Assembly: GCA_030428355.1 (NCBI GenBank)
Contig: JAUIBL010000001.1
Span: 124,001-188,000, forward strand
Length of the DNA stretch: 64,000 nucleotides
Origin: Alphaproteobacteria bacterium
GTDB lineage: Bacteria; Pseudomonadota; Alphaproteobacteria; Rhodobacterales; Rhodobacteraceae
Reading direction: 5' to 3'
Position numbers and translations under genes: made by a program
Part shown: one piece after another, positions 3,179-7,030 of the stretch
How positions within the stretch are numbered: position 1 is the stretch's first letter
Layout of the letters: the number at the start of each line of letters is the position of its first letter
Notes under the pieces: model-generated
Seen by the model: the letters and a program-made list of their open reading frames with translations, nothing else
Told to the model about the DNA's origin: nothing
The model's database searches: none

Positions 3179-3643
3179 CTATCGTTTGATCCCCAATCTT
3201 GGGTCGAACGTGAATGGCTCTTGCGAAACGACAGTGACCCGCGACATCTCGGGGTGTTGCGGGTTCAGCAGGTAATTGACCTCATTCGGGATCACCATTG
3301 ACGGCACGCACAGGATCGCGGATTGCGCAGACTTTAGCCAACGGTCGCCGAAGGCGCGATACTCTGAAAGGCCTGCATCCAGCGGCACATCCGCGAGGTG
3401 CACAACCTCCATCGCAAGATCCGCCGGAACCTCCAGTTTGACCGCAATCAGGTTCGGCAATTTGTGCGACACCCGCATCGACGGTGGCAGATGCACGAAC
3501 ACTTCCAGACAGCTCAGGGCCAGCGATCCACCGCAATAGACGACGGCCCGTCCCGGCGAATTCCAACGCCCGCCTTCCTTTCTGGCCCCAAGCCCGTCGA
3601 GGCCCGGAGCGTATTCGGGGCGCGTCAACCGCCAGACATGCAT
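3179..3643 (-). CDS. RES-domain toxin (putative NAD+ phosphorylase)
   Basis: This 154-residue protein matches the RES family, toxins of type II systems that degrade NAD+. The conserved Arg, Tyr, Ser and Glu positions are visible: R5 in HVWRLTR, then GGRWNSPGRAVVY at 24-36, S40, and E47 in LSCLEVFVHL. The ATG at 3643 shares one base with the stop codon of the upstream antitoxin gene (TGATG), so translation is probably coupled. A TTG one codon upstream is a less likely start. The gene converges with ftsK, leaving only 10 bases between stops. Base composition is less GC-rich than the flanking housekeeping genes, which suggests acquisition. Family assignment is firm; activity is inferred. Confidence 0.88.
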   Translation of the reverse strand: MHVWRLTRPEYAPGLDGLGARKEGGRWNSPGRAVVYCGGSLALSCLEVFVHLPPSMRVSHKLPNLIAVKLEVPADLAMEVVHLADVPLDAGLSEYRAFGDRWLKSAQSAILCVPSMVIPNEVNYLLNPQHPEMSRVTVVSQEPFTFDPRLGIKR

Positions 3644-4245
3644 CAATCGAAGATGCCGTGTTCCAGCCGGGTCAGAACGCCTTCAACCTCGCGAGCGCCA
3701 ACATCCGTGCTGGCCATCTCCATCGGCACCTCGTCGTTCAGCGCGGGGTTGGGGCTGCGCAGCCATTCCTCGGCCAGATCTTCGTCTTCAAACACACGAA
3801 ACGCATGGGCCGTCACACGAACCAATCGTGCCAATCCATCCGCCTCCTCGGGCTTCAAAGGTTCGGTGCGCTGCAGGCGCCGTTCCAGCGTGCGCATCGA
3901 GATGACGCGCGCCAGATCAAGCTTGGTCAAGACAGAACACCTTTGCAGATCGCGCGCAACAGACGCCTGAATGCCCTGTGAAATCGCAGCATAGGAGAAA
4001 TCGAAATGCAGGGTCTGTCCTTCCGAGATCACTTCGTATTCAGAGCCTTGCGATGTGATCATCATCGAAGTCGAGCTGGCCTTCCGAATGTCCGATTTGT
4101 CCGAAATCACTTTCGTCCCGTCCTTTTGTCTCAGTACCTTGGTGTCCCGGGGAGACGTTTCGCCAAATGCCACAGGCAAGTTGTGCATATGGCGGTATGT
4201 TTGTGCAAGGTCAATAAATGCCAAGGGTAAAGGTTCCGTCACCAT
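3643..4245 (-). CDS. Xre/MbcA/ParS-type antitoxin paired with RES toxin
   Basis: The C-terminal half has the antitoxin/toxin-binding layout usual for RES partners: a helix-turn-helix-like region (LDLARVISMRTLERRLQR), then EADGLARLVRVTAHAFRVFEDEDLAEEWLRS and a closing NPALNDEVPME segment, corresponding to the DUF2384-type domain. It would bind and neutralise the RES toxin and repress its own promoter. The start is uncertain. ATG at 4245 gives 200 residues with only a weak AGG upstream, while ATG at 4065 gives 140 residues, closer to the usual family length. The gene precedes the toxin, the normal order for this class, and overlaps it by one base. Confidence 0.78.
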   Translation of the reverse strand: MVTEPLPLAFIDLAQTYRHMHNLPVAFGETSPRDTKVLRQKDGTKVISDKSDIRKASSTSMMITSQGSEYEVISEGQTLHFDFSYAAISQGIQASVARDLQRCSVLTKLDLARVISMRTLERRLQRTEPLKPEEADGLARLVRVTAHAFRVFEDEDLAEEWLRSPNPALNDEVPMEMASTDVGAREVEGVLTRLEHGIFD

Positions 4246-4364
4246 GACGTGAGCCTGCAACACCCGAAGGATCAGCCGAAATTCGCCACCTGCTATCGCA
4301 TATCCGCGCCCGGTTCGCCATATTGTGGTCCATGAGTTCCCGAGCAGACAGGATCCAGGACCCT

Positions 4365-5650: not shown

Positions 5651-5815
5651 GCCGGCCAATGCCTTTCACCTTGTGTCGCGCCCCGCGTCTACCCCTTCAA
5701 AATGGCAGCAATGGGCCGGTTTCAGGCCCGACCTGCCCCACCTGCGCGCGGCGATGCGCCAACGCATCGCATGTTTGCGTTGACGCAAACGCCGCCCCGT
5801 CCCAATGCTGCGCAT

Positions 5816-7030
5816 ATGCACCGACGCCAGATCCTCACACTCGCCACAGCCGCGCTTCTGACGCCCGGCCGCGCAACCGCCCGAAACGCGCGCCAGCCGA
5901 CCGGCTATCTGCGCACCAACTGGAGCCGCGATCCCTTCGCCCTCGGGGCCTATTCCTATATCGCGCGCGCCGCCTCCCGGGCCGACACGGACGCGCTGCG
6001 CCGCCCCGTCGCCAATCGCCTCTTCTTTGCCGGAGAAGCCACCCACCCCGACTACAACAGCACCGTACACGCCGCCTATGAAAGCGGTCTGATCGTGGCC
6101 GACACTGTGGCCGACACACGCGCCGAAACGGTCGCCATCATCGGTGCCGGGATCAGCGGCCTCACCGCCGCCCGTGCCCTGCGCGACATGGGATTGGACG
6201 TGACCGTGTTCGAGGCCCGCAACCGGATCGGGGGGCGCATCTGGACGGACAGCCGCCTCGGCACGCCGCTCGATCTGGGGGCAAGCTGGCTGCATGGCGA
6301 CGACGGCAATCCGCTGGTCCCGCTGGCGCAAGAACAGAGGATGCGCAGCGTGGTCACCGGGGACGACTATGTTCTGCGCGGGGCCGGGGGCCGCAGGCTG
6401 CGTGACCGCGATGTGCCCGACTGGTTCGAGGATGTGGTGACAATCCAGCAGGAATACGGTGCCAGCACCGCAGAGATCAACTGGGATGCCTACGAGGACG
6501 ATCCCGACTACGATGGCGATGACCGGCTTTTCCCGCAGGGCTATGCGCAAATCCTCGGGCAAGCTGACAGCGATCTCGACATCCGCTTCGGCACCGAGCT
6601 GCGCCGCGTCAGCCTCGACGGCGACAGCGTTGCGCTTGCCTCGGCCGATGCTGCGCTGGGTCGGTTCGATGCTGTGGTGATCACGGTACCGCTAGGTGTT
6701 CTCAAGGCCGGACGCATCGCCTTTTCCCCGGCTTTGCCGGACGACAAGCAGACCGCGATCAACAGGCTCGGCTTTGGCCTGCTGGACAAGCTCTATCTGC
6801 AGTTCGAAGATGTGTTCTGGGATGCCGATGCGACCTGGATCCTGACACCCGAAACCGGTCTGCCGCCGGGGCAGTTCAATCAATGGCTCAACCTTGCGGC
6901 GGTGCTGGATGTGCCGATCCTGCTTGCCTTCAACGGAGCCGGGCCCGCGCGGGATCTGTCCGGCCTGTCCGACGACGCCCTTGTTGCCCGTGCCCTGCAG
7001 GTGCTCGAAGCTGCCTATCCCGACGGATAG
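5816..7030 (+). CDS. Flavin amine oxidase with circularly permuted domain order, Tat-exported
   Basis: This 404-residue protein carries all the hallmarks of the flavin monoamine/polyamine oxidase family, but in rotated order. Residues 1-22 form a twin-arginine-like signal (RRQILTLATAALL). Residues 29-91 are what is normally the C-terminus: GYLRTNWSRDPFALGAYSY (30-48), then RLFFAGEAT (68-76) and STVHAAYESG (82-91), which contact FAD and the substrate cavity. Only then comes the Rossmann-type GAGISGLTAARAL (110-122), the acidic E133 and GGRIWTD, GASWLHG (155-161), and the substrate-domain motif VPLGVLKAGRI (291-301) with K325. The protein ends AAYPDG, exactly where ordinary members continue into the GYLRTNW segment. 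The frame remains open upstream of the ATG, but that part has no family similarity. Substrate is unknown. Confidence 0.85.
   Translation: MHRRQILTLATAALLTPGRATARNARQPTGYLRTNWSRDPFALGAYSYIARAASRADTDALRRPVANRLFFAGEATHPDYNSTVHAAYESGLIVADTVADTRAETVAIIGAGISGLTAARALRDMGLDVTVFEARNRIGGRIWTDSRLGTPLDLGASWLHGDDGNPLVPLAQEQRMRSVVTGDDYVLRGAGGRRLRDRDVPDWFEDVVTIQQEYGASTAEINWDAYEDDPDYDGDDRLFPQGYAQILGQADSDLDIRFGTELRRVSLDGDSVALASADAALGRFDAVVITVPLGVLKAGRIAFSPALPDDKQTAINRLGFGLLDKLYLQFEDVFWDADATWILTPETGLPPGQFNQWLNLAAVLDVPILLAFNGAGPARDLSGLSDDALVARALQVLEAAYPDG

Follow-up and report, generated by a model that had tools for sequence, protein, structure and literature searches.

Does the reading frame at positions 5,816 to 7,030 of the window, a 64,000-nucleotide stretch of DNA from a member of the Rhodobacteraceae, encode a flavin amine oxidase whose segments have been rotated by natural circular permutation, or is the unusual order the product of an error? 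The original prediction held that the segment that normally closes amine oxidases comes first, behind a twin-arginine-like signal, and that the FAD-binding Rossmann motif follows it. All of the motifs that it placed are present in the 404-aa translation: RR at residues 3–4, GYLRTNWSRDPFALGAYSY from residue 30, RLFFAGEAT from residue 68, STVHAAYESG from residue 82, GAGISGLTAARAL from residue 110 and AAYPDG at the C-terminal end. In Pfam-A, the protein matches PF01593 with an E-value of 1.5e-68 and 232.6 bits (curated cut-off, 19.8) in three stretches, the best of which aligns residues 217–402 to profile positions 177–366. A six-frame search of the same genome orders the pieces along the gene as profile positions 343–442, 1–83 and 176–374, the third extending a few codons beyond the stop. 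The closing segment thus precedes the Rossmann motif within the open reading frame, as had been claimed. The normal-order relative L156, used as a control, yields a single stretch covering profile positions 1–441. The best solved-structure match in phmmer is human LSD1, again with the pieces in rotated order. Since the N-to-C order differs from that of the PF01593 profile, the protein is a permuted variant and not an ordinary member of the family.

The features of the gene are collected in Table 1. The sequence shows that ~70 residues usually found at the end of the protein, namely, a strand, the GEA flavin motif and the last helix, come first, that a few residues link this former C-terminal part to the first Rossmann strand, and that the chain now opens between the last helix and the strand with GYLRTNW. 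Circular permutation of this PF01593 protein is supported by its conservation across genera and phyla, the confident predicted fold and the analysis of the joint. We consider it very probable that the product of this gene is an intact FAD amine oxidase of the PF01593 family that has undergone natural circular permutation and is exported.

Table 1. Features of the permuted gene, in window coordinates.
Feature	Position	Strand	Remarks
Circularly permuted flavin amine oxidoreductase gene (PF01593)	5816..7030	+	404 aa; coordinates include the stop
Twin-arginine-like signal, residues 1-28 (MHRRQILTLATAALL...)	5816..5899	+	By eye; RR/KR of relatives; low pLDDT
Former C-terminal segment, residues 29-96: GYLRTNW strand, FFAGEA flavin motif, STVHAA helix	5900..6103	+	PF01593 343-442
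Joint, residues 97-106: tail of the former C-terminal helix up to the first Rossmann strand	6104..6133	+	Model; motif spacing
Rossmann FAD-binding part, residues 107-190 (GAGISGL, GGRIW, LGASWLHG)	6134..6385	+	PF01593 1-83; NAD_binding_8
Stretch between pieces, shortened substrate-domain part	6392..6460	+	Profile positions 84-175 unmatched
Substrate-domain and second FAD-domain part, to the new C-terminus	6461..7027	+	PF01593 177-366
Lys325 (LLDK)	6788-6790	+	Within the substrate-domain and second FAD-domain part; aligned to LSD1 NLNK
Last helix, residues 386-400	in 6461..7027	+	AlphaFold model

A search for PF01593 homologues in reversed order, proposed along with the original prediction, yielded 57 complete permuted relatives, which we refer to as class I. 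They come from a scan of 84,980 species with the patterns GY[LI]RTNWS and YN[SG]TVHAA, which reaches close relatives only and found 62 loci. The 57 complete proteins are 397–412 aa long; excluded are L073, whose frame is interrupted, L111, in which the matching region lacks an open frame, L101 and L107, which are truncated by a contig end, and L115, which has a short partial match to residues 1–73. All four motifs are found in permuted order in 51 of the 57 proteins. In the other six, the pattern missed one or two motifs, yet a motif of the former C-terminal part again lies ahead of the Rossmann motif. Alphaproteobacterial hosts include Roseobacter-type genera, Roseibium, Erythrobacter, Nioella and Parvularculaceae, whereas hosts beyond this class are Okeania (five bins), Hydrocoleum (one locus), Opitutaceae (three bins) and Verrucomicrobia (one bin). 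In the six loci assigned to Okeania or Hydrocoleum (L076, L079, L085, L086, L087 and L094), the GC content is 0.35–0.39, below that of all others, which we take to fit these cyanobacteria. Judging from these sequences, with hosts mostly known as bins, transfer of class I between phyla, into Cyanobacteria, is likely.

The distribution of class I is patchy. At E ≤ 1e-60, and with its own genome included, the gene is found in 15 of 394 genomes of the family and in 3 of 385 genomes of the class. We also searched with a profile covering the joint region (A3), scoring the best 12 or 25 candidates per genome. The profile matches at 1e-16 in 36 of 298 Pseudomonadota genomes, and the joint is spanned in four of them, three of which (the window, G919 and G847) are themselves rows of the profile, whereas G092 is not. 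The other A3 matches listed cover one side of the joint and at most ~20 positions of the other (ranges 56–160 or 2–83). Within the phylum to which the Okeania genome G789 belongs, a joint-spanning A3 match is present in one of 146 genomes, G789 itself. No place in the plasmid records covers 80% of the permuted protein.

A structure prediction, also proposed at the outset, gave a confident fold: the AlphaFold model built from 58 aligned permuted proteins has a mean pLDDT of 87.9 and a pTM of 0.86, a confidence that depends on this one alignment of 58 rows. A model from a 9-row alignment (pLDDT 54.1) was discarded. Residues 1–23 have pLDDT values below 50. The model contains strands at residues 30–35 and 69–71, a helix at 84–99 and a strand at 105–109, which is the first Rossmann strand; the last two elements leave a joint of about 5 residues. 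Both parts are predicted to fold into one domain pair, with the packing of residues 29–96 judged from pLDDT and pTM. The top Foldseek matches are LSD2 and LSD1 (for LSD2, E-value 4.1e-21, query TM-score 0.65, 365 columns), in alignments that follow the chain order only and cannot display the permuted part in place. Matches in a viral structure library are weaker, the best having an E-value of 3.6e-10.

The joint can also be followed through motif spacing. In class I, 26 of 30 rows have a distance of 21 residues from the motif histidine to the Rossmann strand, as do 8 of 9 rows of a second permuted class (class II, see below); the remaining spacings are 22, 22, 26 and 23, and L135 reads 21. The eight nearest normal-order proteins end 16–18 residues past this histidine (L188 by eye) and four others end 19, 20, 32 and 43 residues past it; the pattern failed on the remaining normal-order rows. 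The spacing of 21 versus 16–18 residues indicates that the natural ends were fused with almost no extra linker. A different change affects the substrate domain. The spacing from ASWLH to GY is 80 residues in the window protein and 78–84 in class I where the pattern matched, versus 111 in three class II rows. Among normal-order rows, it is 122, 123 and 127 in three and 114 and 133 in a further two. The class I substrate domain is ~40 residues shorter than in close relatives, and the gap in the PF01593 profile places the loss near residues 192–216. This shortening suggests a more open or shorter pocket.

Nearly full-length colinear matches are present in eight other genomes among the 195 searched, own included. 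Five of these belong to the same genus (G003, G008, G009, G011 and G016; 5 of 16 other genomes, 71–79% identity) and three to the family beyond the genus (G089, G092 and G027; 51–58% identity). No such match is found in the other 11 of the 16 genomes of the genus. G072, which matches over residues 1–69 only, at a contig end and with one stop, is left out of the count. The single TGA in G092 was rejected as a frame defect, because it sits beyond the end of the intact frame. The surroundings of the gene, with ftsK, lolA, slt-like and hspQ genes (named by eye), are common to five Marivita relatives. In ten Marivita loci from genomes devoid of the gene, nine of them with both flanks, nothing matches the protein at 1e-4. 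Three Marivita loci without the gene (L137, L139 and L145) have 223–232 bases between the flanking genes, corresponding to an empty site, and at the same position L138, L140, L142 and L146 carry other genes (LysR-type, transporter and others, assigned by eye). Given the lack of a match in the gene-less Marivita loci and the three empty sites, the permuted gene was gained or lost as a unit.

These loci bear on the most direct objection, namely, that an assembly join or a frameshift has fused two neighbouring normal-order genes. The reading frame in the window is open far upstream (760 aa) and could hide a longer gene. However, several relatives have an in-frame stop just upstream of the start (frames of 407 and 409 aa in G089 and G027), the permuted order is identical in the 57 complete copies from many assemblies, and none of the ten Marivita loci holds a copy in another order. 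The normal-order relative at the locus and the assembly join against which the original prediction was to be weighed are not what we find: independent assemblies keep the permuted order and refute the assembly-join reading, to which we leave practically no probability. An intact frame could still belong to a protein that is no longer an oxidase, being either a binding protein or the product of a decaying gene. The ~40 missing residues of the substrate domain, the patchy presence in 15 of 394 family genomes, and the interrupted or shifted frames at two of the 62 loci (L073 and L111) would all fit such a fate. By contrast, the residues expected of a flavin enzyme are invariant in 58 rows. These are K325, which we take to be the flavin-side lysine equivalent to K661 of LSD1, G110, G112, G115, G139, G140 and R141 of the Rossmann GxGxxG and GGR motifs, and G73 and E74 of the GE flavin motif, even though the latter lies near the N-terminus. 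In comparisons of the window gene with four Marivita copies, pN/pS is 0.24–0.32 in the mature part, 0.18–0.38 in the former C-terminal segment and 0.19–0.83 in the joint. With the low value of the mature part and the uniform length of the 57 copies (397–412 aa) also speaking against it, loss of the oxidase function is improbable.

Circular permutation and domain swapping can interconvert, and the N-terminal segment might be donated to a second subunit, in which case the permutation would have produced an obligate oligomer, a domain-swapped dimer. However, the monomer is modelled with confidence, and the ~5-residue joint coincides with the point at which the eight closest normal-order proteins terminate; we regard the swapped dimer as very improbable. 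For an intact permuted monomer, the question becomes where it works and what accepts its electrons. RR is present in the window protein and RR or KR is found within the first 12 residues in 56 of 57 relatives, a count of the motif for which starts were chosen before an in-frame RR/KR, so that it indicates the existence of such a start and not its use. The signal and the kept motifs point to an FAD enzyme that is folded before Tat export. The protein would fold with FAD in the cytoplasm, the twin-arginine pathway would then export it in the folded state, and periplasmic amine oxidation would proceed by hydride transfer to FAD. O2 would be the likely acceptor, given that the protein retains the flavin-side lysine and that no adjoining partner cytochrome c gene is recognised; by analogy, this is the better guess and not a result. 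Open reading frames of at least 70 aa with a CxxCH motif lie within 3 kb at 7 of the 57 loci, several contigs ending before 3 kb, and only that of L114 resembles a real cytochrome by eye, an oxidase subunit. No partner cytochrome c gene is recognised within 3 kb at the 57 loci, some of whose contigs end sooner.

According to the available text of a study on Tat-type amine oxidoreductases, enzymes whose gene adjoins one for a cytochrome c are dehydrogenases, and most of the tested enzymes without such a neighbour react fast with O2; an exception is one enzyme from Erythrobacter, which has a Tat signal, lacks a cytochrome and reacts poorly with O2 (PMC12224317). The dehydrogenases with a neighbouring cytochrome c gene described there lend some plausibility to a cytochrome-dependent dehydrogenase in place of an O2-using oxidase, the more so as a partner cytochrome may be encoded elsewhere. 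Set against the lack of a recognised partner near the 57 loci, a dehydrogenase is possible but unlikely.

The nearest solved relatives of the permuted protein are LSD1/LSD2 and polyamine oxidases. With LSD1/KDM1A, LSD2/KDM1B, and polyamine and spermine oxidases it shares the profile segments, the flavin motifs, the lysine position and the predicted fold, but it differs from them in its rotated segments and in the missing part of the substrate domain (profile positions 84–175). Among the closest normal-order relatives found are amine oxidases with an RR/KR start from Rhodobacteraceae and other Pseudomonadota (L018–L020, L156, L157 and L188), of which L018–L020 are 37–39% identical to the permuted protein over residues 208–402. 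The RR/KR start, identified by reading, is common to these proteins and the permuted one, whereas in the former the Rossmann motif directly follows the signal, the GEA motif comes last and the substrate domain is longer. Tat-exported amine dehydrogenases of the NicA2/Pnao type resemble the permuted protein in their export signal (putative in our case), superfamily and lysine, but have an adjacent cytochrome c gene, as described in the available text (PMC12224317), whereas none is recognised at the permuted loci.

Permutation is not confined to close relatives of the window protein. In the phylum search, the pieces along the gene are 26–185 then 230–401 in G919 and 28–185 then 232–401 in G847. 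The two genes encode permuted proteins of 414 and 418 aa with no RR signal at the start. Class II loci include L166:5400-6644 (-), L167:5207-6463 (-), L171–L187 and L189, with a longer substrate domain than in class I. Among 143 relatives of G919, itself included, 19 match at 1e-40; 18 of these are permuted, and L188 has the normal order with RR. Fifteen of the 18 genomes belong to one proteobacterial genus with large genomes (g714), in which at least ten other searched genomes yielded no match. Among the permuted copies, L187 and L189 are distant and come from other families. Relatives of class II on plasmids in Synechocystis and Haloarcula were considered as permuted candidates and rejected, since they read as normal order.

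To place the two classes, phylogenies were built from rotated sequences, with 30, 24 and 19 class I rows in the first, second and third tree, respectively. The second and third trees exclude the long row L189 and several close rows; also left out of the trees are 9 of 32 loci of the motif scan without a scored frame, as well as L199, L210 and L229. Class I forms one clade in all three trees (support 96, 99/97 and 100/99, respectively). Class II is one clade in the second and third trees, without L189, and has a support of only 58 in the first, which contains L189. Class I is placed nearer to the normal-order LSD1-like rows than to class II in the best trees, with weak branches (90/81 and 89/80 in the second tree, 85/32 and 92/89 in the third). 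Forcing all permuted rows together costs only 7.4 and 1.2 lnL units (AU test p-values of 0.34 and 0.47). At the level of sequence, the identical joint favours one permutation event, and the tree slightly favours two. If there were two, independent permutations of the fold would have hit the same joint, the first in an exported class that has a shortened substrate domain, occurs mostly in Alphaproteobacteria and later crossed to Cyanobacteria and Verrucomicrobia, the other in the signal-less g714 class; we hold this scenario tentatively, at somewhat below even chances.

Tandem duplication is a usual route to circular permutations. Before class I spread, an ordinary gene would have been tandemly duplicated or fused, with subsequent loss of the outer parts. 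No tandem intermediate was found among the loci examined. Stop-containing matches in G102 and G038 were considered as tandem normal precursors and rejected by a motif scan, in which the 13 kb of L048 (G102) contained one copy and L052 (G038) none. L030 (G146), considered as a distant permuted copy, was likewise rejected, as its frames have the normal order, preceded by chance similarity.

Natural permutation is known as a kind of rearrangement, and the amine oxidase case is a new variant of it within the open-access literature, as covered by titles and beginnings of abstracts. Murzin, as cited in PMC2395249, reportedly described a probable circular permutation in a flavin-binding domain in 1998. 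The cpRAS GTPases, a natural circular permutation in another family, represent the same kind of rearrangement as the permuted amine oxidase, but are GTPases (PMC2430557, available part). The claim of the original prediction that no example had been described stands for open-access titles and beginnings of abstracts, among which we find no description of a permuted amine oxidase; subscription papers and preprints lie outside this scope. A survey counting 54 cases of circular permutation does not contain 'amine oxid' in the available main text (PMC4432964). Words beginning with 'permut' are absent from the main text of PMC7576179 and from the available main text of PMC12224317, the words oxidase, flavin, FAD, Rossmann and oxidoreductase are all absent from PMC11757225, and 'amine oxidase' is absent from PMC2395249. 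For Marivita together with amine oxidase, no related open-access paper was found, judging by title. The surprise is real but moderate, permutations being known in other families and the chemistry not being shown to be new.

The natural permutation of a two-domain flavin enzyme with the LSD1/MAO fold, maintained under selection, shows that the natural ends of this fold can be fused and that new ends can be opened in its substrate domain. The permuted enzyme offers a ready template for amine oxidase engineering and is useful for studying folding and FAD loading before export. It also calls for caution in annotation, since a profile-based assignment gives the family name and hides the order of the segments. 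The two permuted classes provide a concrete case for testing whether permutation recurs at one place; if the two events were indeed independent, the amine oxidase fold would tolerate, and perhaps favour, the fusion of its natural ends.

Outside Marivita, the permuted genes have no widely common surroundings. Pfam names obtained for 20 of 93 picked neighbour ORFs reveal no theme beyond TetR-type regulators, and no neighbour among these 20 hints at the substrate. At five loci (L096, L102, L105, L106 and L113), a protein of one related cluster is encoded directly downstream of the permuted gene, and the three of these downstream proteins that were scanned (L096, L102 and L113) are TetR-type according to Pfam. 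A promoter and terminator scan found nothing. Just upstream of the permuted gene in the window lie two dyads, at 5752-5769 and 5773-5790 (CGATGCG..CGCATCG and GTTTGCGTTGACGCAAAC), which are largely conserved across five aligned Marivita upstream regions and are perhaps operators. Farther upstream, between ftsK and lolA, the window carries a RES-type and Xre-type gene pair (3179-4263, assigned by eye). Among the matches listed for five compared Marivita relatives, none falls on this pair, which, judging from its sequence, may be an inserted toxin-antitoxin pair.
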